Source: a bacterium 1XD8-76
GTDB taxonomy: Bacteria; Bacillota; Clostridia; Lachnospirales; Lachnospiraceae
Assembly (NCBI GenBank): GCA_003611955.1
Contig: RAZE01000001.1
Coordinates: 248,001-312,000, forward strand
Direction: 5' to 3'
Length of the DNA stretch: 64,000 nucleotides
Shown one piece after another: positions 25,353 through 58,416 of this stretch. Positions within the stretch are counted from its first letter, which is position 1. Every line of letters begins with the position of its first letter. Both the position numbers and the translations under genes were made by a program. The notes under the pieces are model-generated. The model ran no database searches, was not told the DNA's origin, and saw only the letters and a list, made by a program, of their open reading frames with translations.

Positions 25353-25396
25353 ACCTCTGACCTCTATCATTCTGAAACTGATTCATCTTTCATTTC

Positions 25397-25425
25397 AGAA
25401 TAACATTTTAATCCTTAAAAGTCAA
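25397..25425 (-). promoter_or_regulatory. Internal promoter of the LacI-type gene
   Basis: Minus strand TTGACT (25425-25420), 17 bases, TATTCT (25402-25397). A dyad TTCTGAAA/TTTCAGAA (25370-25377 and 25393-25400) overlaps its -10 and could be a binding site. Confidence 0.5.
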
Positions 25426-25437
25426 AATTTTACAATT

Positions 25438-26481
25438 TTAATCATAGAGCAGCGGAGCGATCTTTTCATCGTCAATATTTGACGCGTCATACCAGTAACA
25501 GCCCGTATCTATAAACGATTCTACCTCCTCGCCGTTGATCAGTTTCACCGCACTTTCCACCGCCGCGCGTCCCATGCCGATCGGATCCTGCGTGATAGCT
25601 CCCACGATCTCGCCGTTTCGTACCGCCTCTTTCATCGCTGCGGAGGAGTCGAACCCAACAAGCATGACCTCACCGATCTTTCCCGACTCTTTCAATCCGT
25701 TGTATGCACCGACACAGGAACCTTCATTAGATGTGTAGATCAGATCGAGATCCGGGGTAGCCATCACCATACTCTTTGCTATTTCCGCCGATTTCATCTG
25801 ATCGCCTTCACCGTACTGGATATCAACGATTTCAATGTCCGGATATTCCTCTTTTAACTTTTCCTCAAAGCCGGCTACTCGTTCCACCGCATCTATTACT
25901 GTCTGTGAATGACCGATGATCGCAACTTTTCCTTTCCCGCCAAGCAGTTCCCCTGCATGCTCTGCAGCAAGCGCACCGGCGGCCACAGAATCCGTGGAAC
26001 ATTTTGCATCGGACTCCGCTTCACCCACACCGGAATCAAATCCGATCACCGGTATTCCTTTCGCCTTTTCATCCTGAAGGATTCCCGCAACGGACTCCGT
26101 ATCAATGGCAGCCATACAAATGGCATCCGGATTATTCTGAATCGCTGTTTTCAGCATATCCACCTGTTTATCCACCATCGTCTCCTGTTCCGGGCCCTCA
26201 AATGTGATACGATAACCCAATTCCGCTGCCGCCTCTTCTGCTCCCTGTTTTACGGCCTGCCAATACTGATGTGAAAATCCGAGTGCAATCATCGCAATAT
26301 ACTTGTCATCATCCGCAGATGTATCCGTATCTGCCGCCGCACTCTCACCCGCTGCTTCACCACCCGGTTCTTCCGTTTTCACTTCCGCAGTTTCCTCTGT
26401 GCTCCCACCTGAGGAGCATCCGACCAGCAATGTTGATAACATTCCTATTACCATCAATACTGCCACCAGTTTCCTTTTCAT
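25438..26481 (-). CDS. Sugar ABC transporter substrate-binding lipoprotein (RbsB-like)
   Basis: Secreted sugar-binding protein of the ribose/galactose type. The lipoprotein signal MKRKLVAVLMVIGMLSTLLVGC puts the lipid Cys at 22. A low-complexity Glu/Ala/Thr linker (about 25-60) precedes the periplasmic_binding_4 domain, with IAMIALGFSHQYWQAVKQGAEEAA, GIPVIGFDSGV and LVGFDSSAAMKEAVRNGEIVGAITQDP. It delivers its ligand to the permease and ATPase encoded immediately upstream. The sugar is unknown. Unusually for such operons the binding protein is third rather than first. Confidence 0.93.
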   Translation of the reverse strand: MKRKLVAVLMVIGMLSTLLVGCSSGGSTEETAEVKTEEPGGEAAGESAAADTDTSADDDKYIAMIALGFSHQYWQAVKQGAEEAAAELGYRITFEGPEQETMVDKQVDMLKTAIQNNPDAICMAAIDTESVAGILQDEKAKGIPVIGFDSGVGEAESDAKCSTDSVAAGALAAEHAGELLGGKGKVAIIGHSQTVIDAVERVAGFEEKLKEEYPDIEIVDIQYGEGDQMKSAEIAKSMVMATPDLDLIYTSNEGSCVGAYNGLKESGKIGEVMLVGFDSSAAMKEAVRNGEIVGAITQDPIGMGRAAVESAVKLINGEEVESFIDTGCYWYDASNIDDEKIAPLLYD

Positions 26482-26536
26482 CTAGTTACCTCCTTTTTTC
26501 TTTCCTTTTATTTTATAATGGCTTATGCCACTATAC

Positions 26537-27526
26537 TCATGTGTTATTTTTGCTGACCGTTTTTTTCTTTTTTCTCCTCTGGTCAAACGCTACCGTCAAA
26601 ATCAGCACGACACCGATGATCGCATATTGTGTCTCTGTGGATATCTGCATAATCCGAAGACCGTTCTGTAAAGAGCTGATGATCAGGGCTCCTATCAATG
26701 TCCCTACGATTGTCCCTTCTCCTCCCATCAGAGAATTTCCGCCGATAACCGCAGCCGCTATCGCGTCCATTTCATATCCCGGTCCCAGAGCCGGCTGCGC
26801 GGAATTTAACCGGGAGGATAATACCAGCCCCGCAATTCCCGCATAAGTACCGCAAAGAGTGTATACACCGATCAGCCAGTTGTCTGTATTGATACCGGAA
26901 AGCCTCGTCGCCTCCGAATTGGAACCGATGGCGAGCGTATATCTCCCAAAAATCGTTTTGGAGAAAATAATATACGACACTACGCACATTCCGAGAAGAA
27001 TGATAATGGCATTGTAAAACCCGTCAATGCCCAGGAAGTTTCCGGTAGCAATCTTCTGATACCAGGAGCACTCTGTAAAATAGACCGGTTTGCAGCCCGA
27101 AATGACAAGCGAAAGTCCCTTTGTTATCATCTGCATCGCCAGAGAGGCAATCATAGGCGGCAGTCCCAGTTTCGCACTCATGAAACCATTCAGGAAACCG
27201 CAGAATGAGCCGACCAAAATACCCAGAATAATGCACAGGCCGATCGGGAGCCCCGCGGAGTTAAATGCAACACCGCTGAGTATACAGCTGAATGTCATCA
27301 CCGTGCCGACAGATATGTCTATTCCCGCCGTCATGATCGGCCAGGATACCGCAAACGCGAGCAGGCCGTTCGTACTGGTTGCCAGCAATATTGTCATAAT
27401 GTTTGTGTAGCTCAGATACGCAGGATTAATGATCCCGAAAGCCATCAGAAGAACTATAAGGGCAAGAACAATTACGATTTTTCTTTTAAACTCCGATTGC
27501 TTTGTTAAATTTTTCAGCTTTTCCAT
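26537..27526 (-). CDS. Sugar ABC transporter permease (RbsC-like)
   Basis: A 329-residue permease with about 9-10 hydrophobic segments. It has the conserved motif WPIMTAGIDISVGTVMTFSCILSG near residue 65 and GLSGINTDNWLIGVYTLCGTYAGIAGLVLSSRLNSAQPALGPGYEMDAIAAAVIGGNSLMGGEGTI-type C-terminal loop, which contacts the ATPase. Family length and motifs are normal. The first residues overlap the ATPase gene by 13 bases, showing coupling. Confidence 0.93.
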   Translation of the reverse strand: MEKLKNLTKQSEFKRKIVIVLALIVLLMAFGIINPAYLSYTNIMTILLATSTNGLLAFAVSWPIMTAGIDISVGTVMTFSCILSGVAFNSAGLPIGLCIILGILVGSFCGFLNGFMSAKLGLPPMIASLAMQMITKGLSLVISGCKPVYFTECSWYQKIATGNFLGIDGFYNAIIILLGMCVVSYIIFSKTIFGRYTLAIGSNSEATRLSGINTDNWLIGVYTLCGTYAGIAGLVLSSRLNSAQPALGPGYEMDAIAAAVIGGNSLMGGEGTIVGTLIGALIISSLQNGLRIMQISTETQYAIIGVVLILTVAFDQRRKKKKTVSKNNT

Positions 27527-29034
27527 ACCTTACTCTCCTTTACATCTCTCTGGGTTGCAAATCTCATAATGATATCCTGCTCGATCTCTTTCCCTGTCAC
27601 TTCTCCTGTCAGTCTTCCCTCGCACATCACCAGCACTCTGTGACAGCATCTCATGATCTCCGGCAGTTCGGAGGAAATCACAATGATCGTTTTCCCCTGC
27701 TGTGCCAGCATATTCATCAATTTATAGATTTCACTTTTGGCCCCTACATCGATTCCCCTGGTAGGTTCGTCAAAAATAATAATTTCCGCATCTTTGGTCA
27801 GCCATTTCGCAAGAACAACTTTCTGCTGATTGCCTCCCGACAGGAATTTTACAAGCTGCTTCACGGAAGGTGTTTTTATTGCCAGGTCGCCGAGCTGCTT
27901 ATCCGCATTTGCCGCGCATTCCTTAAATTTAATGAATCCAAATTCAGACATATTTTGAAGGTTCGCCATGGAAATATTCGTCTCCACATCAAGCCCGAGC
28001 GCCACCCCATACCGTTTTCTGTCTTCCGACAAATATGCGATTCCCGCTTTTACCGCATCCGCAGGTGAATGGATCTTCTGCTCTTTTCCATGAATAGCGA
28101 TCCTGCCTGAGCTATGAGGATCCGCTCCGAAGATCGCTCTTGCCGTTTCCGTTCTTCCTGCCCCGACCAGTCCTGCAAATCCGAGAATTTCTCCTGCATA
28201 TGCCTTAAAACTGATATCCTGCACTAACGGTCCCGCATTTAGGTGTTCCACCTCCAGAGTCGGTTCCAGATTTTTCTTTTTGAGTTCTTTTTGCTTTTCA
28301 ACAAAAATCTCACGGCCAACCATCATTTTGATCAGTCCATCTATTGTTACCCCTTTTGCATCTACCGTGTCGATGTATTTGCTGTCACGCATCACCGTGA
28401 TCCTGTCAGCGATCAGTTTCAGTTCTTCCAGCCTGTGCGAAATATGAATAATCGATTTCCCCTCTTTCCGCAGCATTCGGATCACATCAAACAGATCATC
28501 GATCTCGTTGTCCGTCAGCGAAGCTGTAGGCTCATCCATAATCAACACTTTAATATCAAAAGACAATGCCTTTGCTATCTCCACCATCTGTTGCTGCGCA
28601 ACCGTAAGATTACCAACCTTTTCACCTGGGTCAATTTTGACGTGCAGCTTTTCAAATAATTTTGCCGCCTCTTCGTTCTGGGTTTTCTTGTCAAGAAATA
28701 CTTTATTTTTCCTGAACTCCCTGCCGATAAAAATGTTTTCTGCCACACTCAGATGATTCATAAGATTTAATTCCTGATGGATCATGATTACCCCGGCATT
28801 CTGGGCCTCTTTTACGTTATGAAACTCCACTTCTCTGCCTTCCAGAAATATCTTTCCTGAATCTTTGGAATAGACTCCTGTGAGAACTTTCATTAAGGTG
28901 GATTTTCCAGCTCCGTTTTCTCCAACCAGCGCATGTACTTCTCCTGTATCAAGCGAAAATTTTGCGTCTGACAAGGCTCTGACACCAGGAAACTCTTTTG
29001 TGATACCTTCCATCCTGATAACTTCTTCCGGCAT
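27514..29034 (-). CDS. Sugar ABC transporter ATPase (RbsA-like)
   Basis: A tandem ATPase of 506 residues with two nucleotide-binding domains. The first has Walker A GENGAGKST, signature LTVAQQQMVEIAKAL and Walker B LIMDEPTASLT. The second has the degenerate A-loop GLVGAGRTE, signature LSGGNQQKVVLAKWL and Walker B IIFDEPTRGID. This split of one canonical and one degenerate site is standard in the RbsA/XylG/MglA group. It is the first gene of the operon, behind the promoter at 29135-29163 and the operator at 29054-29071. Confidence 0.94.
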   Translation of the reverse strand: MPEEVIRMEGITKEFPGVRALSDAKFSLDTGEVHALVGENGAGKSTLMKVLTGVYSKDSGKIFLEGREVEFHNVKEAQNAGVIMIHQELNLMNHLSVAENIFIGREFRKNKVFLDKKTQNEEAAKLFEKLHVKIDPGEKVGNLTVAQQQMVEIAKALSFDIKVLIMDEPTASLTDNEIDDLFDVIRMLRKEGKSIIHISHRLEELKLIADRITVMRDSKYIDTVDAKGVTIDGLIKMMVGREIFVEKQKELKKKNLEPTLEVEHLNAGPLVQDISFKAYAGEILGFAGLVGAGRTETARAIFGADPHSSGRIAIHGKEQKIHSPADAVKAGIAYLSEDRKRYGVALGLDVETNISMANLQNMSEFGFIKFKECAANADKQLGDLAIKTPSVKQLVKFLSGGNQQKVVLAKWLTKDAEIIIFDEPTRGIDVGAKSEIYKLMNMLAQQGKTIIVISSELPEIMRCCHRVLVMCEGRLTGEVTGKEIEQDIIMRFATQRDVKESKVWKS

Positions 29035-46128: not shown

Positions 46129-47148
46129 CTATGCTTTTTTGCTTTCCTTAATCTTGGCAAAAACTGCCTGCAGAAGAATAAAGAAACACAACAGGATAGC
46201 CGTAATAATGTTCGCCCAGGAGCTCACCAGCTTACCATTGGTCTTTACCAGGGTCGAAATCGTACCGTTGATGAGCACGCCCACGAGGGAGCCCAGGACA
46301 TTGCCCACACCGCCGGTCAACAACGTTCCGCCGATGACCGAGGACGAGATCGCGTCCATCTCAAGTCCCGACGCCTGCGTTGTCGTACCGCACATCGTAT
46401 TCAGGCAGTAGCAAATACCGCCGATTGACGTCAAAAAGCTGCTCAGAGTGTATGTCAGCAATTTTGTCTTTTTTACATTCAATCCCATCAGTGTAGCCGA
46501 TACCTGATTGCCGCCCACCGCATAGATGCTTCTGCCAAACTTGGTATATTTTAACATCAGATAGACCAGAACTACGACAAGCAGCGCTACAATGACTGTG
46601 GGACGTATAAACGGAACCTGATAGATTCCCTTTTTGTTTTCATAACCACCGAAAGGAATGCTGATTTTCGCGTTGGAGATCGCCGTAAAGAGCTTGTCGG
46701 AGACAATACTCACCTGATCCTTACAGATCACGGCGGTCATACCTCTGGCAAAGAACATACCCGCCATTGTCACGATAAACGGCTGGATCTCCAGATACGC
46801 CACGCAGAATCCCTGCACCAGACCGAACACCACTCCGATCACCAGAACCATGATCATCAGAACCGGGCTCTTCATTCCCCATGTCTCCATACCTACCGCC
46901 AGAAACATACAATCCATAGCGATCAGGGAACCGACGGAGATATCGATGCCGCCCGTCAGCATTACACAGGTCATACCGGCCGCCACGGCAATCAGGCCCG
47001 CGTTATTGATCAGAACATTCAAAAATGTCTGAAAATGTGTAAATCCTTTATCTGCGTAGACGATACAGCCGCCCAGATACATGATAACAAACAGTGCCAC
47101 CGTGATGGCAAGCAGTATATTATTTCCACTCACTTTTAATTTTTTCAT
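46129..47148 (-). CDS. Sugar ABC transporter permease (YjfF-like)
   Basis: A 339-residue permease with about ten hydrophobic segments. AGMTCVMLTGGIDISVGSLIAMDC is the conserved cytoplasmic motif of RbsC-type permeases, and MDAISSSVIGGTLLTGGVGNVLGSLVGVLI contacts the ATPase. It pairs with the permease encoded before it to form a heterodimer, as YtfT/YjfF of the E. coli galactofuranose importer. It is the last gene of the operon, with a 4-base overlap to the gene before. Confidence 0.9.
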   Translation of the reverse strand: MKKLKVSGNNILLAITVALFVIMYLGGCIVYADKGFTHFQTFLNVLINNAGLIAVAAGMTCVMLTGGIDISVGSLIAMDCMFLAVGMETWGMKSPVLMIMVLVIGVVFGLVQGFCVAYLEIQPFIVTMAGMFFARGMTAVICKDQVSIVSDKLFTAISNAKISIPFGGYENKKGIYQVPFIRPTVIVALLVVVLVYLMLKYTKFGRSIYAVGGNQVSATLMGLNVKKTKLLTYTLSSFLTSIGGICYCLNTMCGTTTQASGLEMDAISSSVIGGTLLTGGVGNVLGSLVGVLINGTISTLVKTNGKLVSSWANIITAILLCFFILLQAVFAKIKESKKA

Positions 47149-48212
47149 GCCTGCACCGCCTCCTTTGCCGCTGCCTTTTTAGAGGACAGTTTTTTGAAAT
47201 AATCCTTCACAGGCTGTGACTGGATTACCACGATCAGGATAACCACGATAGCCTTGAACACAGGAGCCTGAGCGGAAGAAACACCCAGAGCGTACAGTGT
47301 CGTAGTGATCGCCTGAATCGTGTAAGCGCCGATGATGGAACCGGCCAGGTTAAACTTACCTCCGCCAAGGCTGTTACCGCCCAGCGCTACCGCGAGGATA
47401 GCATCCAGCTCCATGTTCAGACCGATGTTATTGGTATCTGCAGAATAGATCCTGCAGGTCGCAACCAGTCCGGAGATGCCTGCGCACAGACCGCAGATCA
47501 CATAGCAGAGCAGAATGATCTTCGCGGAATTGAAACCGGAAATTCTGGATGCCTTTTTATTGATGCCGACGCTCTGAATATACGTGCCCAGCGCCGTCGT
47601 CTTGAGCACGATCGAAGCGATCGCCACACAGACTGCCGCGATGATGATCGGTGTCGGAACGATACCGCAGTACGCCCCGAAGAACTGGAAGGAAGGCACA
47701 CGCACATACACGATATTGCTGTTGCACAGAAGCAGTCCGATCGCCCTGCCTGCAGACCAAAGGATCAGCGTAGCTACCATCGGCTGAATATTCATATATG
47801 CCACCAGAAATCCGTTGAACAGACCGCAGACACATGCGATCGCCACACCGGCCAGCATTCCCACCCAGAGGGGAACATTGTACTGGTCCACATTGGTCAC
47901 ACCGTATCCCGCAAGCAGCATACAGCACAGGCCGCCGGATAAGCTCATCACGGATCCCACCGAAATATCCGTCCCCGCCGAAGCCGATACCACCAGAGTC
48001 ATGCCGATCGCAAGAATCGCTACCTCACTGCCGCGGTTCAATACGTCGATCAGACGTCCGTATAAAATACCGTTGTTGATACTGATAGAAAAGAAGCTGA
48101 GCGGAGCATTTCCTGTGGCGATATCGTACACCACGTTGATCATCATGACGAGTATCATACTGAAGATCGGCAGGAACAGCTTCATCTTTGTAATTTTTTT
48201 GATTTTATCCAT
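47145..48212 (-). CDS. Sugar ABC transporter permease (YtfT-like)
   Basis: A 355-residue permease with about ten hydrophobic segments. It has the RbsC-type motif AIGMTLVVSASAGTDISVGSVMSLSGGLCCML and the C-terminal LNMELDAILAVALGGNSLGGGKFNLAGSIIG. The tail is Lys-rich (KKLSSKKAAAKEAVQA). It starts with one base of overlap with the ATPase stop (TAATG) and overlaps the next permease by four bases. Confidence 0.9.
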   Translation of the reverse strand: MDKIKKITKMKLFLPIFSMILVMMINVVYDIATGNAPLSFFSISINNGILYGRLIDVLNRGSEVAILAIGMTLVVSASAGTDISVGSVMSLSGGLCCMLLAGYGVTNVDQYNVPLWVGMLAGVAIACVCGLFNGFLVAYMNIQPMVATLILWSAGRAIGLLLCNSNIVYVRVPSFQFFGAYCGIVPTPIIIAAVCVAIASIVLKTTALGTYIQSVGINKKASRISGFNSAKIILLCYVICGLCAGISGLVATCRIYSADTNNIGLNMELDAILAVALGGNSLGGGKFNLAGSIIGAYTIQAITTTLYALGVSSAQAPVFKAIVVILIVVIQSQPVKDYFKKLSSKKAAAKEAVQA

Positions 48213-49729
48213 TATTTAGCACCTCCCGCAATTGCCTTCATGACACCTTCCTGAGACAACTCTTCGCCGCTGATCTCTCCGACCTTCGCACCGTCTCTGA
48301 GGACTGCCATACGGTTACAGGTTCTGAGCATCTCCTCGATCTCGGAGGATACAAAGATCACGCTCGTTCCCTCCTCCGCCAGTTTGATCACCAGCTTCTG
48401 GATCTCTGTCTTTGTTCCGATGTCAATACCTCGGGTGGGCTCATCCAAAATCAGGAAATCCGGATTTGTCGCCAGCCATCTGGCCAGAATAACCTTCTGC
48501 TGATTTCCGCCGGAGAGCTGTTTGATCAGAGTCTCTCTGCTCGCCGTTTTAATCTGAAGCATCTCGATAAACTTATCCGCGATCTCGATCTGTTTCGCCA
48601 TCGGTATCTTCTTAAAGATACCTGACTTTGCCTGCATGGCGAGAATGATATTCTCCCGCACGGACAGATCGCCGATAATGCCCTCGGCCTTTCTGTCATC
48701 CGGCAGAAGTCCCATGCCGAGATTCATCGCATCGATCGGGTTCTTGATATTTACTTCCTCGCCCTTCACCTTCAGTGTGCCGGTCTGGGCTCTGTCCGCG
48801 CCGTAGATAACACGGGCCAGTTCCGTACGGCCGCTGCCGAGAAGTCCGGTCAGACCGATCACTTCCCCTTTATGTATATCCAGATTGAAAGGCTTGATCG
48901 TTCCGGAATGGCTCAATCCCTTCGCCTCGATCACCAACGGTTCTTTGGATTTGTCACCGCTTCCCTCCGGTTTGATGCTTGCCAGATCGTCAAAATCTTT
49001 TCCCATCATAGCCGCCACCAGTTTTACACGGGGCAGCTCCTCAATACTGTACTCTCCAACGAGCGTACCGTTTCTGAGAACGGTGATACCGTCGCATACC
49101 TCGTATACCTGCTCCAGGAAATGAGTTACAAAGACGATCCCTACTCCCTGCTCGCGAAGCCTTCTCATCATGCCGAAAAGTTTCGCCACTTCGTTGTCGT
49201 CCAGTGAAGACGTGGGCTCATCCAGGATCAGCACCTTGCAGTCCATATCCACCGCCCGGGCGATCGCTATCATCTGTTGCAAAGCCAGCGAATACTCCTC
49301 CAGATTCTGTGTCACATCGACATCCAGATCCAGATCCTTCATCAGCTTTGTTGCCATCTCATTCATTTTCTTTCTGTTTACCGTGCCGATCTTCGTCATC
49401 GGCTCCCTGCCGATGAACAGATTCTCCGCCACGGAGAGGTTCGGACAGAGGTTTACCTCCTGATAAACCGTGGAAATACCTTTTTTCTGGGCATCCATCG
49501 TGTCCTTGTTCACGATCGGACCACTGATGCCGTCCAGATAGATTTCTCCCGCCTCAAACTTGTTTACCCCAGTAAGACACTTGATCAGTGTGGACTTTCC
49601 TGCCCCATTTTCCCCCATGAGCGCACGAATTTCGCCTTTTTTCAAGTTGAAATCCACATTTTCCAACGCTTTTACACCGGGGAATGTCATACAGATTCCT
49701 TTCATACTCAAAACAACATTATTTTCCAT
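48212..49729 (-). CDS. Sugar ABC transporter ATPase (YtfR-like)
   Basis: A tandem ATPase of 505 residues. First domain: GENGAGKST, EYSLALQQMIAIARAV and LILDEPTSSLD. Second domain: GLLGSGRTE, LSGGNQQKVILARWL and LILDEPTRGID. The start at 49729 (MENNVVLSMKG) has GGAAGGAG upstream; an ATG at 49822 adds 31 residues with no domain. Between it and the binding-protein gene lies a long hairpin (49802-49851), which usually limits downstream expression relative to the binding protein. Confidence 0.93.
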   Translation of the reverse strand: MENNVVLSMKGICMTFPGVKALENVDFNLKKGEIRALMGENGAGKSTLIKCLTGVNKFEAGEIYLDGISGPIVNKDTMDAQKKGISTVYQEVNLCPNLSVAENLFIGREPMTKIGTVNRKKMNEMATKLMKDLDLDVDVTQNLEEYSLALQQMIAIARAVDMDCKVLILDEPTSSLDDNEVAKLFGMMRRLREQGVGIVFVTHFLEQVYEVCDGITVLRNGTLVGEYSIEELPRVKLVAAMMGKDFDDLASIKPEGSGDKSKEPLVIEAKGLSHSGTIKPFNLDIHKGEVIGLTGLLGSGRTELARVIYGADRAQTGTLKVKGEEVNIKNPIDAMNLGMGLLPDDRKAEGIIGDLSVRENIILAMQAKSGIFKKIPMAKQIEIADKFIEMLQIKTASRETLIKQLSGGNQQKVILARWLATNPDFLILDEPTRGIDIGTKTEIQKLVIKLAEEGTSVIFVSSEIEEMLRTCNRMAVLRDGAKVGEISGEELSQEGVMKAIAGGAK

Positions 49730-49801
49730 GTAGACGTCTCCTTCCAGAGTTTTCTTCCCAGGTAATGATTCTTGCTTCCGCCAGTTTTTTCCGTCACAAT
49801 G

Positions 49802-49851
49802 CGTAAAGGGGAGAAACCCCAAGTTTCCCCGGGATCCTCTCCCCCTTTACG
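49802..49851 (-). repeat. Intercistronic hairpin between binding protein and ATPase genes
   Basis: CGTAAAGGGG (49802-49811) pairs with CCCCTTTACG (49842-49851), with an inner stem of GGGGAAAC/GGTTTCTCCCC type. No U-run follows on the minus strand. Such elements stabilise binding-protein mRNA in sugar operons. Confidence 0.6.
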
Positions 49852-49888: not shown

Positions 49889-50989
49889 TTAGTAAGCACG
49901 ACCATCCAGAACTTCCTGGCTCATGGTTACTGCGTACTGGCTCTCGATACCAGGTGCTACGAAAGCCTGATCCTCAACCAGTGTCCACTTGTCAACTTCT
50001 TCGCCGGCTTCCAGTTTCTTGATAACTTCCTCAGCGAAACCTGCCTGCAGAGGATTGCACTCTACGTTACATGTGATCTTGCCGTCCAGTGTGTACTGAA
50101 GTCCGTCGTGTGTAGCATCGAAGGAGATGATCTGTACATCGCCGTCAACACCATATGTAATACCTGCCGCATCCATAGCGTCCATTGCGCCGTATGCTTC
50201 GTTATCGTTCTGGCATACAACTACGTTGAAGTTGCCTGCGCCGTAGGTCTTAATGAAGGACTCCATAACTTCCTGTCCGCCTGCCTGTGTGAAGTCACCG
50301 GACTGAGAGTCGAGAACTTTCCAGTTGGAGTTCTGAGCTACGATGTTGTTGAAGCCTTCTGTACGGCCAAGTGTAGCGGATGCGCCAACGGAACCTTCGA
50401 TAACGAGGATGTTTGCATCTGCGCCATCCAGGTACTCAGCAAGCCAGTTACCAGCTGCCTCACCTTCAGCGATCATGTCGCAGCCGAGAGCTGTTGTGTA
50501 CAGAGTGTCAGCAGCGTCAACCGCACGGTCAACGATCAGTACAGGGATACCTGCGTCCTGTGCCTCCTGGAGAACGGTGTCCCAACCAGCGGACTGGATC
50601 GGAGCGATGCAGATGTAGTCAAGTTCCTGCTCGATAAAGCCACGAACTGTCTCGATCTGAACTGCATGGTCATTGTCGCAGTCTACGAAAGATAACTCAT
50701 AGCCGTTTTCTGCACTGAAAGTATCCTGATAGTTCTTTGTGTTAGCTGCACGCCAGTCAGACTCGTGACCAACCTGTGCAAAACCTACTGTGACAACTTC
50801 ACCGTCTGCTGCCGGAGCCGCTTCCTCTGTAGCTGCTTCCTCTTCTGCCGGAGCTGCTTCCTCCTCTGCCGGAGCTTCCACTTCCTCTGTAGCTGCTGCC
50901 GGAGCTTCTTCTTCCGCTGCGCCGCCACATGCAACCAAACTGGAAACTGTCATTGCAGCAACCAATAATAACGCAATTTTTTTCTTCAT
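49889..50989 (-). CDS. Sugar ABC transporter substrate-binding lipoprotein (YtfQ-like)
   Basis: Binding protein of 366 residues with the signal MKKKIALLLVAAMTVSSLVACGG, lipid Cys at 21. A long Ala/Glu-rich linker (about 24-60) precedes the sugar-binding domain: TVGFAQVGHESDWRAANTKNYQDTF, GWDTVLQEAQDAGIPVLIVDRAVDAADTLYTTALG, SVGASATLGRTEGFNNIV, VVCQNDNEAYGAMDAMDAAG and QIISFDATHDGLQYTLDGKITCNVECNPLQAGFAEEVIKKLEAG. The pattern is that of galactofuranose/arabinose-binding YtfQ. It is the first gene, with the promoter at 51054-51082. Its paralogue is the membrane-anchored sensor at 54156-55205. Confidence 0.93.
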   Translation of the reverse strand: MKKKIALLLVAAMTVSSLVACGGAAEEEAPAAATEEVEAPAEEEAAPAEEEAATEEAAPAADGEVVTVGFAQVGHESDWRAANTKNYQDTFSAENGYELSFVDCDNDHAVQIETVRGFIEQELDYICIAPIQSAGWDTVLQEAQDAGIPVLIVDRAVDAADTLYTTALGCDMIAEGEAAGNWLAEYLDGADANILVIEGSVGASATLGRTEGFNNIVAQNSNWKVLDSQSGDFTQAGGQEVMESFIKTYGAGNFNVVVCQNDNEAYGAMDAMDAAGITYGVDGDVQIISFDATHDGLQYTLDGKITCNVECNPLQAGFAEEVIKKLEAGEEVDKWTLVEDQAFVAPGIESQYAVTMSQEVLDGRAY

Positions 50990-51024
50990 TTTTTTTCCTC
51001 CCTAATGAATATTTTTTTTTGCGC

Positions 51025-51046
51025 CGGAACAGTTTTTCTGTTTCCG
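51025..51046 (-). promoter_or_regulatory. Stem-loop at the mRNA 5' end
   Basis: CTGTTTCCG (51038-51046) and CGGAACAG (51025-51032) pair around five T. The predicted transcript starts at about 51047, so the stem is at the extreme 5' end and may stabilise the mRNA. Confidence 0.45.
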
Positions 51047-51053
51047 TAATTTT

Positions 51054-51082
51054 ACTTTAACCGATTTACAATTTACAGGCAA
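51054..51082 (-). promoter_or_regulatory. Promoter of the sugar importer operon
   Basis: Minus strand TTGCCT (51082-51077), 17 bases, TAAAGT (51059-51054). Weak boxes suggest that it needs an activator. A GCACTTTTTGTGC dyad lies at 51083-51095 directly upstream of the -35. Confidence 0.55.
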
Positions 51083-51101
51083 GCACTTTTTGTGCATTAT
51101 A

Positions 51102-51213
51102 TATGATTTCGTACATCTAAACAATACAAATTTTTGTCTATTATGACATTTTATGATACAAATTTTGCTGAAGAAGTTGAATTTTTTATGATTCTGTATG
51201 ATTTTTTATGATT
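51102..51213. promoter_or_regulatory. Phased TATGATT repeats upstream of the importer promoter
   Basis: TATGA-type elements start at 51102, 51142, 51152, 51187, 51197 and 51207. Spacing is 40, 10, 35, 10 and 10 bases, so most lie on the same DNA face or exactly opposite. They are upstream of the importer -35. AraC-type regulators such as the nearby YesN-like one bind direct repeats, so these may be its sites. The gene-free stretch 50990-51408 also holds the promoters and leader hairpin noted above; nothing else was seen. Confidence 0.5.
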
Positions 51214-51351
51214 TTTACTTATTTCAAAGATTTTCCGGGAGAGATTCCCCCCGTAAAATATATGCCAAATTGCCCAAAATAAGAAATGCATCCGGAAAAA
51301 TATTGAATTTTTTAAACTTTACCCGGAAAAAAGAGAAATTTTTACCTTTTC

Positions 51352-51380
51352 TTGATGGCGTTCTTCAAATATGTTATTTT
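51352..51380 (+). promoter_or_regulatory. Possible promoter of the GntR-type gene
   Basis: TTGATG (51352-51357), 17 bases, TATTTT (51375-51380). A second TATAAT occurs at 51384-51389 with a poor -35. Confidence 0.35.
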
Positions 51381-51408
51381 ATTTATAATACCGGAGGAAA
51401 TATTCCCT

Positions 51409-52491
51409 ATGCCCGCAAAATATATAAGGCTCGCAAACCTGTTAAAAAATCTGATCGACGAAAATAACGGCGATATCTTTAAACTTCCCACCGAAGCGCA
51501 GCTCTGCCGGAAATACGGTGTAAGCCGGCAGACCGTTCGAAAAGCGCTCTTTGTTCTGGAACAGGAGCATTTAATAGAAAAACGGCAGGGCAGCGGTTCC
51601 TACGCCACCGGGCTTTCCGGCACGGCAGGAAAAAATACCGTAGCCATCCTGATCTGCTCCGACACGGAATACATCTATCCCGCTCTTCTCGCCGACCTGC
51701 GCGGTGCGCTGCAGGCGCAGGGATTTTCCTTCACCGTCTGCACGACCGAAAATCGGATCTCCAGAGAAAGGGAGATTTTGCAGCATCTCCTCGCCCACCC
51801 TGTCCGCGGTATATTGAGCGAAGGCTGTAAGACGGGATTTCCGACGCCGAATCTGGATCTGTACAACCGACTGGCGGAAAAAAACATTCCCGTCCTGTTT
51901 TTCCATGGGAACTATTCCAACCTGCCGGATTTTCCCTCCATAAAGGATGATAATTACGGCGGCGGCTATTACCTGGGGAAATATCTTGCCTCTCTCGGCC
52001 ATAAAAAAACGGCCGGCATCTTCAAGGCGGACGACATCCAGGGAAGTGAGCGTTATTTCGGATTTCTGTCTGCTCTGCGGGATGAAAATATCCCTTTTTC
52101 GGAGGACTGCGTCTGCTTTTTTGACACCGCACAGCTCACCGCGCTGCAGAAAAGGCAGGACACCGGTTTTTTGTCCGAATTTGTAAGCAAACAGTTAAAC
52201 GGTTCCACCGCTGTCATCTGCTACAATGATGAGATCGCCTACTGGCTGATCAAAGAACTTTCCTATAAAAATCTGCGGGTCCCGGAGGACATCAGTGTCG
52301 TCTGTTTTGACAATACCTATCTCAGCGAACTCTCCTCCGTGCAGATCACTTCCCTGTCCCACAAAAATCACGAGATGGGGATGATCATCGCCGAAAATAT
52401 CCTGAAATTGATAAAGGGATTTCCCGTTTCCTCTCAGAAGATTCCCTGGCATCTCGATATAAAGCGAAGCTGCGGCCCTGCATCCGGATAG
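51409..52491 (+). CDS. GntR/LacI-hybrid repressor (AraR-like)
   Basis: A GntR-type winged helix (about residues 1-70: NLLKNLIDENNGDIFKLPTEAQLCRKYGVSRQTVRKALFVLEQEHLIEKRQGSGSY) fused to a LacI-type sugar sensor (about 80-355: TVAILICSD, PVLFFHGNYSN, VPEDISVVCFDN). This is the AraR architecture, in which a sugar releases the repressor from operators. Start 51409 has GGAGG upstream; a further upstream ATG adds hydrophobic residues of no domain. It is divergent from the importer operon and convergent to the YesN-type regulator. It probably responds to the same sugar family as the importer. Confidence 0.9.
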   Translation: MPAKYIRLANLLKNLIDENNGDIFKLPTEAQLCRKYGVSRQTVRKALFVLEQEHLIEKRQGSGSYATGLSGTAGKNTVAILICSDTEYIYPALLADLRGALQAQGFSFTVCTTENRISREREILQHLLAHPVRGILSEGCKTGFPTPNLDLYNRLAEKNIPVLFFHGNYSNLPDFPSIKDDNYGGGYYLGKYLASLGHKKTAGIFKADDIQGSERYFGFLSALRDENIPFSEDCVCFFDTAQLTALQKRQDTGFLSEFVSKQLNGSTAVICYNDEIAYWLIKELSYKNLRVPEDISVVCFDNTYLSELSSVQITSLSHKNHEMGMIIAENILKLIKGFPVSSQKIPWHLDIKRSCGPASG

Positions 52492-52509
52492 CTCATCCCC
52501 GGCAGGCTC

Positions 52510-54129
52510 CTACTTTCCGTTTCTGTATTCCCTCGGCGTGCAGCCCACCGTCTTCTTAAAGACAAAACTGAAATAATGGGGGTCTTTATACCCGACTTCC
52601 GCCGCGATATCGCCGGAGTGCATCTCGCTCTGGCGCAGCAGTTTCTTCGCTTTATCCATCCGCTTTTTCGTGACATATTCAATGAACGTCATCTGCATCT
52701 CCTGGCTGAAAACACTGCTGAAATAATTGCCGCTGACCCCGATCGCCCCGGCCACGCTGTTCAGGGAGAGCGTATCTTCGCTGAAGTTCTCCTCGATATA
52801 TTCCAGTCCTTTCTTTAACACCTTCTTGCCCTGGTTCTCGCTCTCCCTGTCCCTGAGAATTAACGCCCGCTCCAGAAGTTCCTGTATATAACCGTATATA
52901 TCCCTGCTGTTCACGGAAACCTCCCGCACTTTCTCATTGTCGTCCTCCGCCAACAGTTCCTCTTTACTTATTCTCAGCATCTCCATATAGTTCACGGTCG
53001 TAAAGCGCACGTTTAACAGCAGGTAATCCCGAAACAATCTGGATTCCAGCGCATCTTTCACCCCCGCCAGATAACCGTTCACAAAATCTTCTATCTCCTC
53101 CTGCTTGCCCTCCCTCAAAAATCCCTGTATAATTTCCGGGTTTACCTTCGCGCTGTCCACGGACTCAAAACTTTTGGTATCTTTCCCCGGCAGAAATTCC
53201 ACCGCGTCTTTCTCCGTCAGAATATGCTGCTGCGGATTAAAAAAACGGTGAGCCAGAATATGATTCACCTTCGTATAGCACTCCGGCAAAAGGGAGAGCC
53301 GCTCCACCGGTCTGCCGATCGCCGCGTACCACTCCATCGAAAATTCTTCTTCCTTACATATTTTTTCTATGTTGGCGATACAGCGCTGCTCCAGCTCCTC
53401 CATCCTCTCCGTCTCACCTTTTATCAGGATCCCGTACAGACTGATATTCCAGCGAAATGCCAGATACTCCGGAAACCGCATAAAGAACCGCAGCAGCGCT
53501 TCCCTGACCCGGTTGATTCCCTCAGGTTCGCTCACCGCGATCTCCGGGTTCCGATGTTTTGCCTGCAGACTCAAAAGCACCAGATTATAGCAGGGCGCAT
53601 CCAGTTCCAGGGAAAGTTTCGCCGCCTCCTCATAAATCTGCTGGACGGAGAGAACCCCCCCAAACACCTTTTCCAGAAAGCTTCTGCGGGAATAATCTTC
53701 GTACTCCTTCATCTCATTCTGAAATGTCTCCAGATAGTTTTTCTGCTCCTTCTCCGTCTCGATCTTCTCCCGGATCTCCAGCAGCACCTTCCGCAGGGCC
53801 CCTCTCGTGATCGGCTTTAGCAGGTACTGCTCCACACCCACGCGGATCGCCCGCTGGGCATACTCAAATTCATCGTAGCCGCTGATAATAATGATTCGGA
53901 TATCCGGTATCTCCTGCGTCACGATCTGGCTCAACGCCAATCCGTCCATAAACGGCATCTTAATATCCGTGATCAGCACATCCGGACGTATCTTCCTTAT
54001 CATCGGCAGCGCCATCTCTCCGTCGCTGGCTTCCCCCATGAACTGATATCCATACTCCTGCCAGGGGATATTCTTTTTCAGTCCCTCTCTGACAATACTC
54101 TCATCTTCCACCAAAAATACCTTCAGCAT
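52510..54129 (-). CDS. YesN-like response regulator with AraC output domain
   Basis: A 539-residue regulator. The receiver (1-120) has VEDESIVREGL, the phosphorylated Asp in DVLITDIKMPFMDG, and LKPI. The middle (about 130-430) is a linker domain without a clear family. The C-terminal AraC double HTH has LSLNSVAGAIGVSGNYFSSVFSQEMQMTFIEYVTKKRM and GDIAAEVGYKDPHYFSFVFKKTVGCTPREYR. It pairs with the YesM-like kinase, two genes upstream. Convergence with the GntR-type gene leaves an 18-base gap. It is the likely activator of the importer operon. Confidence 0.92.
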   Translation of the reverse strand: MLKVFLVEDESIVREGLKKNIPWQEYGYQFMGEASDGEMALPMIRKIRPDVLITDIKMPFMDGLALSQIVTQEIPDIRIIIISGYDEFEYAQRAIRVGVEQYLLKPITRGALRKVLLEIREKIETEKEQKNYLETFQNEMKEYEDYSRRSFLEKVFGGVLSVQQIYEEAAKLSLELDAPCYNLVLLSLQAKHRNPEIAVSEPEGINRVREALLRFFMRFPEYLAFRWNISLYGILIKGETERMEELEQRCIANIEKICKEEEFSMEWYAAIGRPVERLSLLPECYTKVNHILAHRFFNPQQHILTEKDAVEFLPGKDTKSFESVDSAKVNPEIIQGFLREGKQEEIEDFVNGYLAGVKDALESRLFRDYLLLNVRFTTVNYMEMLRISKEELLAEDDNEKVREVSVNSRDIYGYIQELLERALILRDRESENQGKKVLKKGLEYIEENFSEDTLSLNSVAGAIGVSGNYFSSVFSQEMQMTFIEYVTKKRMDKAKKLLRQSEMHSGDIAAEVGYKDPHYFSFVFKKTVGCTPREYRNGK

Positions 54130-54155
54130 ATGTCTTCCCTCTTCCGGATAAATTG

Positions 54156-55205
54156 TTAATATGTCCTGCTGTCCAAAAACTCAGCGACATTCTCCTTTGT
54201 AAATATATTTTCCTCGACTATATAACTCTTTTCCACCGGCTCTCCGTTTTCCAGCTTCTTTATGATACTGTCGACGTAAATACCCTGCACCGGATTACAC
54301 TCGATATCCACATTGATCAGCCCTTCGTCCACCATCTCCAGCGCGTCCCGGATCGCGTCAAAGGAAAGGACCGTCACCTTCCCGCGTTCCCCAAAGCTGA
54401 CACCCGCCTCCTGCATCGCCTCGATAGCTCCCATCGTCATATCATCGTTCTGGGACACCAGCACATCGATGCTCGGATAGCGGTGCAGCATCTCCCGCAT
54501 GACTTCCTTCCCCTTTGTGGCCGTAAAATCAGCCGAAGCCGACTCCAGGATATACCAGTTCTCATGGCGCTCCGCGATCTCTTCAAACCCCTCCGTTCTG
54601 CCGATCTGCGCCGTGGAACCGATCGTCCCCTGCAGCACCACGATATTGATATTTTCCGACTGCCTGTTCCTTTTTCTCAGATATTGCTCTAACCATATCC
54701 CCGCCTTTTTCCCTTCCTCCCTGGCGTCGGTACCGATCCATGTCGTGTAGAGGGATTCATCCTTTACATCCACCATTCGGTCGATAACAATAACAGGAAT
54801 TCCGGCATCCTTCGCCTCCTGCAGCACCGTATCCCAGCCGCTCTCTATCACCGGCGCAAACACGATATAGTCCACGCGCTGAGAGATAAAACTCCGGATC
54901 GTCTTGATCTGGTTTTCCTGGGTCTGCCTCGCATTGTTATAGATCAGAAAATAGCCCGCATCTTTCGTCAGCGCCTCCTGAATCGAGCGCGTATGCGCCG
55001 TTCTCCAGCCCGACTCGCTCCCCAGCTGAGAAAATCCCACCACGATCAGGTCTTCCATCTCCGAGTCGGCAGGACTCTGTTCTATCTCGATCCCCCGATA
55101 AAGCCCGTGGCTGATAAAGACAAGCGGCAGGACGCAGAGCAGCAAAATGCAGATTCCAACATGTCCGAAAATGATCTTTTTTAATATCTCCACTGCCCTT
55201 TTCAT
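54156..55205 (-). CDS. Membrane-anchored sugar-binding sensor protein
   Basis: A periplasmic-binding fold of 349 residues with an uncleaved N-terminal helix (about residues 15-34: VGICILLLCVLPLVFISHGL) and no lipobox. The domain mirrors the importer's binding protein: VVGFSQLGSESGWRTAHTRSIQEAL, GWDTVLQEAKDAGIPVIVIDRMVD, TIGSTAQIGRTEGFEEIAE, VSQNDDMTMGAIEAMQEAG and LSFDAIRDALEMVDEGLINVDIECNPVQG. It lies between the kinase and the regulator and overlaps the kinase stop by 4 bases. As in Clostridium XylFII-LytS-YesN, it probably presents a sugar to the kinase rather than to a transporter (inference). Confidence 0.88.
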   Translation of the reverse strand: MKRAVEILKKIIFGHVGICILLLCVLPLVFISHGLYRGIEIEQSPADSEMEDLIVVGFSQLGSESGWRTAHTRSIQEALTKDAGYFLIYNNARQTQENQIKTIRSFISQRVDYIVFAPVIESGWDTVLQEAKDAGIPVIVIDRMVDVKDESLYTTWIGTDAREEGKKAGIWLEQYLRKRNRQSENINIVVLQGTIGSTAQIGRTEGFEEIAERHENWYILESASADFTATKGKEVMREMLHRYPSIDVLVSQNDDMTMGAIEAMQEAGVSFGERGKVTVLSFDAIRDALEMVDEGLINVDIECNPVQGIYVDSIIKKLENGEPVEKSYIVEENIFTKENVAEFLDSRTY

Positions 55206-56752
55206 CTGTCTTCCTCTTTTTTATCCGTTCTTATATTTTCCTGCAACAGTTCTCCCGATGATTTTTCATGCAGTTTTACCGCGGGGATCACAATACTGAC
55301 TTTTGTGCCTTTTCCCTTTTCCGATTCTATCGTCATCCCGTATTCCATCCCGAAATTCATACGGATGCGCTCATTGACGTTGGCAAGTCCGAATCCCTTC
55401 TCCGTCTCCTTGCACGGTCTGCCGATCTCTGTCTGCAGCCGTTTCAGCTCGGCCTCATCCATCCCCACGCCGTTGTCCCGCACGCACAGCAGGATCCTGT
55501 TCTCCTCCGATCTCTCCATCTCCCCTGTGATCCAGATCTTTCCCTTTGCCCGTTTATATTTTATGCCGTGATATAAGGAATTTTCCACCAGGGGCTGCAG
55601 GGTCAGCTTCAATATCTTATACTGGTACAGCTCCGGATCGATAGCGATCTCATAGTCCAGGATATCCCTATAGCGCACCTGCTGGATCTCCAGGTATCCC
55701 CGTATATGCTGTTCCTCCTCCCGGATCGAGATATACTCTTTTCCCTTGCTCAGCACCAGCCGGAAAAATTCGGACAGCGCTACGACCACGTCCACCGCTT
55801 TATCCGGATCGTCCCCCTCTATCAGCCAGACGATCGTGTCTAACGTATTGTAAAGGAAATGGGGGTTGATCTGCTCCTGCAAAAGCCGAAGCTCCGCATG
55901 CCGCATTTTCCGCTCGTCCTCCTTGATCTGGTGCACCATTACTTCCAGATTCTCCGACATGTCGTTCACACTGTCCGATAGTACCTCCAGCTCATCCTCC
56001 GTCTGCATCTTCGCCCGATGGGAAAAATTGCCCTCCGCTATCTGACTGGTGATCCGACACAGCTCCTGGATCGGTTTCGTGATACTGTTCAGAATAGCGC
56101 TGGTGATCAAAATCACCGAGGCGACAATACAGCCGCCCATCAGGACGCTGATTAAGATCACATGTTCCACTTCCGTGTTCAACTGTACCTTCAGCTGTTC
56201 GATCGTTCTGGTCTGATAATAGATATAATACTGTATATCATCCTGTATCAGTTCCGTCAGAATATAGATATCGTTGTACAGCATGTCCGTATTTTTTTCG
56301 TATTCCCCCTCCGACTCCTGGTTCTCCCTGACGTCATCCACCCTGTCCTCCAGCGTGTCCAGGTTGCGCAGAAGGCTTTGCAGCCACACCCGGCTCTCCC
56401 GGTCCGTCGTGATCGTCAACAGTCTGCTGCCCTCCATTCTGAGCTCATCGATCAGAGTATAGGGATTTTTCAGCGTGCCGTCCTCGTCCACCGTGTCAAA
56501 CGTCACATTGCTGACCACCAGTTTATAGAGGCTCTCATCGATCTCCTCCTTGAAGTTCATATTGTAGTTGTTCGCGACGGTCATGCTGCTCACGATCTGG
56601 TCGTAGGCGCGGCTGTAGTTGAGAAGCGCCATGATCAGATAGATCGCGACGTAGAGGATCGGCACCATCGCCACGACCACCAGCACGATCAGTTTATTTT
56701 TCAGGGGGTACTTTATTTTTTCCGCAGTCATAATGTTTTCCGGTTCCTCCAT
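55202..56752 (-). CDS. YesM-like sensor histidine kinase
   Basis: A 516-residue membrane kinase. Helices at about 18-38 and 198-222 flank an external sensor of about 160 residues. A HAMP domain (about 222-275: SITKPIQELCRITSQIAEGNFSH) follows, then the His_kinase domain with LRLLQEQINPHFLYNTLDTI (the phospho-acceptor His is in NPHF) and a GHKL ATPase: LKLTLQPLVENSLYHGIKYK, VRDNGVGM, GFGLANVNERIRM. It is the first gene of the sensor unit with a TTGACA promoter and is divergent from a PutP symporter. Confidence 0.92.
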   Translation of the reverse strand: MEEPENIMTAEKIKYPLKNKLIVLVVVAMVPILYVAIYLIMALLNYSRAYDQIVSSMTVANNYNMNFKEEIDESLYKLVVSNVTFDTVDEDGTLKNPYTLIDELRMEGSRLLTITTDRESRVWLQSLLRNLDTLEDRVDDVRENQESEGEYEKNTDMLYNDIYILTELIQDDIQYYIYYQTRTIEQLKVQLNTEVEHVILISVLMGGCIVASVILITSAILNSITKPIQELCRITSQIAEGNFSHRAKMQTEDELEVLSDSVNDMSENLEVMVHQIKEDERKMRHAELRLLQEQINPHFLYNTLDTIVWLIEGDDPDKAVDVVVALSEFFRLVLSKGKEYISIREEEQHIRGYLEIQQVRYRDILDYEIAIDPELYQYKILKLTLQPLVENSLYHGIKYKRAKGKIWITGEMERSEENRILLCVRDNGVGMDEAELKRLQTEIGRPCKETEKGFGLANVNERIRMNFGMEYGMTIESEKGKGTKVSIVIPAVKLHEKSSGELLQENIRTDKKEEDR

Positions 56753-56853: not shown

Positions 56854-56895
56854 GTGAAAGATTTGTATAAAGATGCAGAAAAGGAGGAGTTTACT

Positions 56896-58416
56896 ATGTT
56901 GACGCAAAGCTGTATCATTCTGGCTATTGTGATCTATCTGTGCGGTATGCTGTACATAGGCATCGCTTTTTCCAAAAAGAATTCCAATACGGATGATTTT
57001 TATCTGGGCGGAAGAACTCTCGGTCCCTTCGTCACCGCCATGAGCGCGGAAGCTTCCGACATGAGCAGCTATCTGCTGATGGGGCTTCCCGGGCTTGCCT
57101 ATCTGTCCGGTCTCGCCGACGTGGGGTGGACCGTGATCGGGCTGGCTGCCGGCACCTATCTGAACTGGCTGATCGTCTCCAAGAAGATCCGCCGTTATTC
57201 CCATGCGGTAGGCGCCATCACGATCCCGGACTTTTTCGCAAAACGCTACGGCGATCAGAAAAACATCCTGACCGCCATTGCCGCCGTGATCATCATTATC
57301 TTCTTCATCCCCTACACCGCATCCGGTTTTTCCGCCTGCGGCAAACTGTTCAGCACGCTCTTCGGCATGAACTACATGGTGGCGATGATCGTCTCCGCCG
57401 TGATCATCGTGACCTACTGTGCATTCGGCGGCTTCCTGGCGGTCAGCACCACGGACCTGATCCAGAGTATCATCATGACGATCGCGCTGTTCATCGTGAT
57501 CGGATTCGGTGTGGTTCAGGCGGGCGGAACTGCCGCTGTGATCGAAAATGCGAAAGCTCTGCCTGGTTATCTGAGTTTCACGCAGACTTACCTGGCGGAC
57601 ACGAACAGCGCCTCCCCATACACACCGCTGATGATGGTGTCCATGCTCGCCTGGGGGCTCGGCTATTTCGGTATGCCCCATATCCTGCTGCGCTTCATGG
57701 CCATCGAGGATGAGGAAAAGCTGTCGTTATCCAGAAGAGTCGCCTCCGTATGGGTGGTCATCTCCATGGCGGTGGCCGTGCTGATCGGCATCATCGGCTA
57801 CGGCATGACAAAGGCGGGCGTCCTCCCCGCCCTCGAAGATTCCGAGACGATCATCATCCGGATCGCCGGTTATCTGAGCAATTTCGGTGTCTTCCCTGCG
57901 CTGATCGCCGGCATTATTATGGCCGGCATTCTCGCCGCCACGATGTCCACCGCGGACTCCCAGCTTCTGACCGCGGCCTCCGGCATCTCTCAGAATATCA
58001 TGCAGGACTTCTTCGGCGTCAAGCTGAAAGACAAAACGGCGATGTCTATCGCGAGGATCACTGTCATCGCCATCGCCGTGATCGGTATCTTTCTGGCAAG
58101 AGATCCGAACAGCTCCGTGTTCCGGATCGTATCCTTCGCCTGGGCGGGCTTCGGCGCGACCTTCGGCCCCGTTGTCCTCCTCGCGCTGTTCTGGAGGCGC
58201 TCCAACAAATGGGGCGCTCTGGCTGGCATGATCTCCGGCGGCGTCATGATCTTTGTCTGGAAATTCGGCATCGCAAAGCTGGGCGGCGCCTTCAATATCT
58301 ATGAACTGCTGCCCGCTTTTATTATCGCCTGTGTCTTCAATGTCGTTGTCAGTCTGCTGACACCGGCTCCCGGGGAGGAGATCACAAAGGTGTTTGATCA
58401 GGTGAGCGGGAAGTAA
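56896..58416 (+). CDS. Sodium/solute symporter, PutP-type
   Basis: Na+-coupled symporter of the SSS family, 506 residues, with about 13 hydrophobic helices. FYLGGRTLGPFVTAMSAEASDMSSYLLMGLPGLAYLSGLADVGW matches the PutP sodium site, and GGFLAVSTTDLIQSIIM and ATMSTADSQLLTAASGISQNI are the later signature segments. It is very like sodium/proline symporters; other amino acids remain possible. The start at 56896 is chosen because AAAGGAGGAG stands before it. A terminator follows at 58432-58458. Confidence 0.92.
   Translation: MLTQSCIILAIVIYLCGMLYIGIAFSKKNSNTDDFYLGGRTLGPFVTAMSAEASDMSSYLLMGLPGLAYLSGLADVGWTVIGLAAGTYLNWLIVSKKIRRYSHAVGAITIPDFFAKRYGDQKNILTAIAAVIIIIFFIPYTASGFSACGKLFSTLFGMNYMVAMIVSAVIIVTYCAFGGFLAVSTTDLIQSIIMTIALFIVIGFGVVQAGGTAAVIENAKALPGYLSFTQTYLADTNSASPYTPLMMVSMLAWGLGYFGMPHILLRFMAIEDEEKLSLSRRVASVWVVISMAVAVLIGIIGYGMTKAGVLPALEDSETIIIRIAGYLSNFGVFPALIAGIIMAGILAATMSTADSQLLTAASGISQNIMQDFFGVKLKDKTAMSIARITVIAIAVIGIFLARDPNSSVFRIVSFAWAGFGATFGPVVLLALFWRRSNKWGALAGMISGGVMIFVWKFGIAKLGGAFNIYELLPAFIIACVFNVVVSLLTPAPGEEITKVFDQVSGK

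Follow-up and report, generated by a model that had tools for sequence, protein, structure and literature searches.

Does a cell sense outside itself the same sugar that it imports, and if so, which sugar is it? This question is raised by a locus of the Lachnospiraceae bacterium 1XD8-76, located in a stretch of 64,000 nucleotides (contig RAZE01000001.1, positions 248,001 to 312,000, forward strand) that we refer to as the window. Here a histidine kinase, a membrane-anchored sugar-binding protein and a response regulator are encoded close to a CUT2 importer which has a related binding protein of its own, and the gene of a hybrid repressor lies in between. We consider it fairly probable that this is an arabinose-responsive three-component system which controls the neighbouring furanose importer. 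Its architecture is of a known kind, represented by AraPST, XylFII-LytS and CuaDSR, and involves no new mechanism; new are the member itself, its likely sugar, its repressor partner and a conserved promoter element. A description of this cassette in Lachnospiraceae was not found in the open-licence literature.

The genes of the kinase, the sensor and the regulator follow each other head to tail on the minus strand (56752-52510). With a 4-bp overlap between the genes of kinase and sensor and only 26 bp between those of sensor and regulator, the three likely form one predicted transcription unit. A LytS/YesM kinase with an extracytoplasmic domain is thus adjacent to a membrane-held binding protein without a transporter and to a YesN-type regulator, and the linked importer brings a second binding protein. 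The importer operon starts 3.2 kb beyond the sensing genes, in the order binding protein, ATPase, two permeases, and the GntR/LacI hybrid gene lies between regulator and importer, divergent from the latter. The first-pass annotation had described a three-component architecture of kinase, anchored binding protein and AraC-type regulator, with which layout and domains agree; the notion that its gene coordinates and domains might be wrong was rejected, as gene positions and domain matches bore them out. For the hybrid repressor the ATG at 51409, preceded by a good ribosome site, is a more likely start than the TTG of the open reading frame at 51352, and the ATPase, judged by ortholog lengths near 505 amino acids, probably starts about 31 codons downstream of the listed TTG.

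Table 1. Features of the sensing and import locus (positions in the window).
Feature	Position	Strand	Domains or basis
Sensor histidine kinase, LytS/YesM (PF06580) class	55202..56752	(-)	HAMP + His_kinase PF06580 + HATPase
Membrane-anchored YtfQ/GafA-like sugar-binding protein as sensor	54156..55205	(-)	Peripla_BP_4; without own permease/ATPase
YesN-type response regulator	52510..54129	(-)	Response_reg + HTH_18 (receiver + AraC-type helix-turn-helix)
AraR-like repressor, GntR/LacI hybrid	51409..52491	(+)	GntR winged helix-turn-helix + Peripla_BP_3 (LacI-type sugar domain)
Tandem element, conserved	51088..51164	(-)	Upstream of importer promoter
Candidate importer promoter TTGCCT-17-TAAAGT	51054..51082	(-)	Read by eye, 8-locus alignment
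Inverted repeat in importer leader, RNA hairpin	51025..51047	(-)	Alignment + RNA fold
Importer lipoprotein binding protein, YtfQ/GafA-like	49889..50989	(-)	Lipobox, domain and profile matches
CUT2 ATPase, YtfR-like	48212..49822	(-)	Domain and profile matches
Permease, YtfT-like	47145..48212	(-)	Domain and profile matches
Permease, YjfF-like	46129..47148	(-)	Domain and profile matches

As had been claimed at first pass, the anchored protein is related to the binding protein of the importer. The two share 131 of 309 residues (42%, E-value 1e-91), and a search of the bacterium's genome with the sensor gave 15 matches, where only the sensor itself ranks above the importer protein (45%, 265 bits); the match ranked below it reaches 31% and 130 bits. 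The sensor has a strongly hydrophobic N-terminus, modelled as a helix of residues 2-32 in a predicted structure with a poorly modelled N-lobe, and a pattern test detected no lipobox in it, whereas the importer protein carries the lipobox LVAC. In a search of the PDB both were nearest to YtfQ/GafA proteins (E-value about 1e-70 for M. smegmatis GafA). Moreover, the sensor scores 254.6 bits against the YtfQ model and 50.2 bits against xylF, and does not belong to the XylF family. The pocket residues E28, W31, R32, D105, R106, R163, F187, N213, D214 and D241 (GafA-Ms numbering) are identical in the sensor, the importer protein and three solved GafAs. Those that go beyond the published pocket were placed after the ribose-binding protein, and we take them to be furanose-pocket positions. 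The three GafA structures are identical in 110 columns, 75 of which are conserved in the sensor, 74 in the importer protein and 60 in both. The GafA paper names Trp, a Phe, Glu28, Asp105 and Arg as pocket residues; it describes the pocket as identical in three solved members and gives L-arabinofuranose and D-galactofuranose as ligands of the family (PMC10191376). Because of the shared pocket, sensor and importer protein likely bind the same sugar.

The kinase comprises a helical extracytoplasmic domain between two membrane segments, followed by the HAMP domain. By sequence, the closest solved kinase is GanS of Geobacillus stearothermophilus (E-value 2.1e-26), which was also the best structural match of the kinase model (Z 20.3 for 193 residues; 15.7 for the next unrelated entry). 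This model has a predicted template modelling score of 0.42, and its structural matches cover the kinase part only (residues 297-496); among the matches listed for this part LytS was absent. The phosphorylation site of the regulator, located by eye, is probably D55.

The sensor has relatives in 8 of the 9 genomes of the genus (threshold 1e-40) and in 86 of 299 genomes of the family (1e-60). A first set of loci consisted of the window and 100 stretches fetched around sensor relatives in the same family, with one family match (G196) left out. A new set was drawn from named genomes as the best 80 of 302 relatives, a choice that favours close relatives; after removal of 10 copies 70 loci remained, of which 46 had a usable gap between repressor and importer. 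These genomes are mostly Lachnospiraceae, including Parablautia muri, P. intestinalis, Hungatella effluvii and Dorea sp. D27. Besides the window, the first set contained 20 loci with the order kinase, sensor, regulator, divergent hybrid repressor and importer, and the new set had 48 among its 70, each of these 48 stretches holding kinase, divergent repressor and importer ATPase. In 18 of the 70, kinase and repressor were present without a full ATPase, in some cases through contig ends. A search of 398 genomes across the wider phylum gave matches in 21; none of 18 fetched stretches showed the full order, and in 8 of the 18 a YtfQ-like importer lay beside an L-arabinose isomerase gene.

L-arabinose, in its furanose form, is the likely signal; this best guess is based on the furanose pocket, the AraR-like repressor and the arabinose genes that adjoin the cassette in related loci. 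A GntR/LacI-hybrid repressor acting as an inside sensor had been noted at first pass, and the domains agree: a GntR winged helix-turn-helix is joined to a LacI-type sugar domain (Peripla_BP_3), as in AraR. The best solved relative is AraR of Bacillus subtilis (3tb6, E-value 1e-43), followed at a distance by a match of 1.9e-15. In the gap between repressor and importer of the window no palindromic AraR box was found, and with up to 3 mismatches the own genome holds 11 sites of the B. subtilis type versus 14 in a reversed control, which is no enrichment. The sole site with 2 mismatches lies in a coding region that by eye appears phage-like. As such boxes were neither found near the gene nor enriched in the genome, we name the protein AraR-like only. 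Palindromic AraR boxes like those of B. subtilis do occur in L101, an arabinose locus from Lachnospiraceae whose hybrid repressor is related, as ACTTGTACGTACAAGT before araA and ACATGTACGTACAAGT before the repressor gene.

Recurring neighbours in the first set were genes for L-arabinose isomerase (21 loci), L-ribulose-5-phosphate epimerase (24 loci) and an FGGY-type sugar kinase (26 loci). One representative each of isomerase and epimerase was tested and passed the curated cut-offs; the kinase matches XylB weakly and owes the label ribulokinase to its neighbours only. Full-cassette loci contained at least one of the three genes in 25 of 68 cases (first set 5 of 20, new set 20 of 48); by our estimate, any one gene would fall into 20 kb of a 3-Mb genome by chance in about 1% of cases. 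Furthermore, the own genome encodes three arabinofuranosidase-type proteins and one GH43 protein. It also contains an arabinose cluster elsewhere (L161, C11:112000-131900), with the isomerase gene and, by eye, those of ribulokinase and epimerase, adjoined by two further CUT2-type importers and an RpiR-like regulator, likewise assigned by eye.

An alignment of eight loci revealed two direct repeats of AATTTGTAT in the gap between repressor and importer. In the window, site 1 (AATTTGTAT) occupies 51164-51156 and site 2 (AATTTGTATTGTTTA) begins at 51132, 32 bp from start to start; conserved, spaced boxes continue asymmetrically for about 35 bp behind site 2 down to 51088. Comparison of 65 elements detected no mirror half in these boxes, and the spacing of the repeats was 32 bp in 37, 31 bp in 24, 30 bp in 3 and 33 bp in 1 of them. 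The repeats lie upstream of the candidate promoter, not over it. The strict form TTGTAT-N25-27-TTGTATTG has one site in the 4.02-Mb genome, namely before this importer, and the reversed control pattern has none; it was found in 15 of 23 repressor-importer gaps and in 0 of 200 shuffle rounds. A matrix built from 15 loci and counted at a score of at least 16 matched 39 of the 46 gaps of the new loci compared to 1 of 460 shuffled gaps, with no match in 70 kinase-upstream regions or on 46 reverse strands. Across the 3.14 Mb of all loci 68 matches were obtained, 67 of them with a binding-protein gene next and the remaining one (L074) in the same gap before a mis-called gene start; as these loci were chosen for the cassette, the counts show the place of the element and not its genome-wide rarity. 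Three loci with cassette and repressor, but with no matching importer in the stretch (L180, L186, L187), had no tandem element even at a score of at least 10. Separately, the inverted repeat in the importer leader (51025-51047) folds as RNA with -9.5 kcal/mol (z -2.15; 7 of 200 shuffles as good), and related loci have different leader sequences, yet the pairing is kept at the same place.

To follow the history of the two binding proteins, we built a quick, midpoint-rooted tree of 156 sequences (4 of 160 were left out for length), with support from the Shimodaira-Hasegawa-like approximate likelihood ratio test only. The window sensor falls into a sensor-only set of 35 rows (support 96), in which an inner set of 22 rows (support 87) holds the sensors of this cassette; the importer protein belongs to an importer set of 12 rows (support 99). 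Importers beside the cassette come from three clades, one of them very distant (branch 2.31, 35 rows). In the first set 10 were near, 1 intermediate and 9 distant; in the new set, classified by ATPase score, 16 were near and 32 distant. Inspected proteins of the distant type kept E28, R32, D105, R106, R163, N213, D214 and D241, with Tyr for W31 and Trp for F187. The sensor did not prove to be a private copy of the importer protein beside it, and a recent copying was rejected: in the tree the two are old paralogues and not the product of a duplication at this locus. Sensors diverge faster: in all 9 loci compared, the identity with the window counterpart is lower for the sensor than for the importer protein. 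The sensor label requires 9 changes on the tree, at least 5 of them on well-supported branches, and dedicated sensors therefore probably arose, or were lost, several times. We tentatively propose, as a reading with slightly less than even chances, that cassette and tandem element form a lasting control unit which was repeatedly paired with non-orthologous furanose importers, and that the sensors of Lachnospiraceae arose several times from dual-role binding proteins.

Other arrangements were found among the relatives. Several loci (L087, L088, L090, L095 and L098 among others) have the order regulator, kinase, one binding protein, ATPase and two permeases, and 27 importer proteins of such loci are in the tree set; their single binding protein may serve both sensing and transport. 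In L061, L121, L135, L141 and L107 a related sensor-type binding protein adjoins a membrane GGDEF family instead of a kinase (GGDEF confirmed in L061) and may feed sugar sensing into cyclic di-GMP signalling. In L107, L112 and L132 a gene of the chemoreceptor family precedes that of a sensor-type binding protein, and for L107 its MCP signal and sCache domains were confirmed. Proteins of 622-672 residues with two binding-protein domains in tandem (L150:5582-7462, L153:2188-4053, L158:1064-3079) are encoded near a kinase, with a dCache sensor domain in L150, and a CUT2 importer.

Several observations weigh against arabinose sensing that acts on the importer. Both binding proteins score below the curated YtfQ cut-off, the YtfQ/GafA family also binds D-galactofuranose (PMC10191376), and no catabolic gene adjoins the cassette in its own genome, where the single L-arabinose isomerase (80% identity) is encoded at a distance of about 170 kb. 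Moreover, the half-site ATTTGTA of the element resembles half of the B. subtilis AraR box, and the partial rank correlation of element strength over 69 loci was 0.23 with repressor and 0.02 with regulator divergence. That D-galactofuranose or another furanose is sensed instead of L-arabinose seems unlikely to us. E. coli YtfQ is described as binding both, and neither protein of the window has the bulky second-shell Phe which limits Shewanella GafA to arabinose (PMC10191376), the sensor having His and the importer protein Asn at this position; however, both the AraR-like repressor and the arabinose genes next to related cassettes speak for arabinose. It is very improbable that the anchored protein delivers sugar to the importer as a second binding protein. 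Although its fold and pocket are those of an importer-type protein, its gene overlaps the kinase gene and remains linked to those of kinase and regulator across loci with different types of importer. Its place in a sensor-only clade, its faster divergence in all nine loci compared and the tested analogue CuaD (PMC10384115) also argue for a sensor.

The half-site and the correlation, the latter leaning slightly to the repressor, fit the alternative in which the tandem element serves the AraR-like repressor and the kinase has another target, as does the true palindromic AraR box in the Lachnospiraceae locus L101 with its related hybrid repressor. We regard this as somewhat unlikely. The AraR box of B. 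subtilis is a palindrome, At(T/A)tGTaCGTAcaa(A/T)T (PMC4218819), whereas the repeats are direct, with asymmetric boxes over 35 bp behind site 2 and no mirror half; besides, they lie upstream of the promoter rather than over it, and the genome shows no enrichment of B. subtilis-type boxes. Such a shape, direct and asymmetric and placed ahead of a promoter, suits an AraC-type regulator, and from it we predict the regulator as the binder with considerably greater probability than the repressor. In C. bescii, predicted sites of AraC-type two-component regulators are tandem repeats with large spacers upstream of promoters, and AraR sites overlap promoters or leaders (PMC8579813). Two full cassettes without the repressor (L194, L244) had no element, but as their regulators are only distant relatives, these loci favour neither binder.

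For an arabinose-responsive system that controls the importer we propose the following course. Outside the cell the anchored YtfQ-like protein would bind L-arabinose in the furanose form and, by analogy to XylFII-LytS and CuaD-CuaS, the ligand-bound sensor would press on the helical outer domain of the kinase. The kinase, judged by the domains, would phosphorylate the YesN-type regulator, which in turn would bind the two AATTTGTAT repeats located upstream of the importer promoter and activate the operon of binding protein, ATPase and permeases. The divergent AraR-like repressor may exert further control from within the cell, which arabinose would probably relieve once imported.

The first-pass annotation had named XylFII-LytS-YesN of Clostridium as the precedent. 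This applies to the mechanism; nearer, however, are AraPST, an arabinose system, and, by sequence and structure of the kinase, GanS. The window sensor is far nearer to YtfQ (E-value 1.5e-69) than to chain 5xsj_X (E-value 7e-11), which we take to be XylFII of the xylose system. GanS, the nearest solved kinase, belongs to a system sensing galactan products, but only its kinase domain has been solved. AraPST, where AraP, AraS and AraT are binding protein, kinase and regulator, was reportedly described with araEGH of G. stearothermophilus by Shulami in 2011. Unlike AraPST, the window has a divergent repressor gene between regulator and importer and a YtfQ/GafA-like importer, and the two systems are likened here without a comparison of the AraP sequence. 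Common to both are separate binding proteins for sensing and transport, as well as a CUT2 arabinose transporter and araR in the organism of AraPST (PMC4194401, PMC10384115). Similarly, the system of Clostridium beijerinckii combines a binding protein, a LytS-type kinase and a YesN-type regulator, and two binding proteins each were described for C. beijerinckii (xylose) and G. stearothermophilus (arabinan) (PMC10384115). CuaDSR of Ruminiclostridium cellulolyticum was tested by mutants, two-hybrid and binding assays: the outer domain of the kinase is bound by a protein dedicated to sensing but not by the one for transport, and the regulator induces the importer CuaABC (PMC10384115). In contrast to the window, the sugar there is cellobiose, CuaD is a lipoprotein and the excerpt mentions no AraR-like partner (PMC10384115). 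The importer itself resembles GafABCD and YtfQRT-YjfF in gene order and furanose pocket, but the four importer-type proteins of the window stay below the curated NCBIfam YtfQ/GafA cut-offs (243/510, 682/850, 263/535 and 302/363 bits).

Two further features of the window lie outside the cassette. A PutP-like sodium symporter (56854-58416) is encoded divergently from the kinase gene; of the 7 other matching genus genomes fetched, 6 have it at this position, so that it is probably a mere neighbour. A second CUT2-type importer (24351-29034; binding protein 25438-26481, Peripla_BP_4) is only distant kin of the importer studied here.

For Lachnospiraceae of the gut, plant-fibre arabinose is a main food source, and the cassette is common among them. 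Our analysis assigns a likely sugar to dozens of kinases that lack a name, and one 77-bp promoter stretch together with three small proteins provides a sharp and cheap test system. Moreover, loci with a single binding protein and loci with sensor plus importer occur in one family, so that the path from a transport protein to a dedicated sensor becomes testable by comparison.

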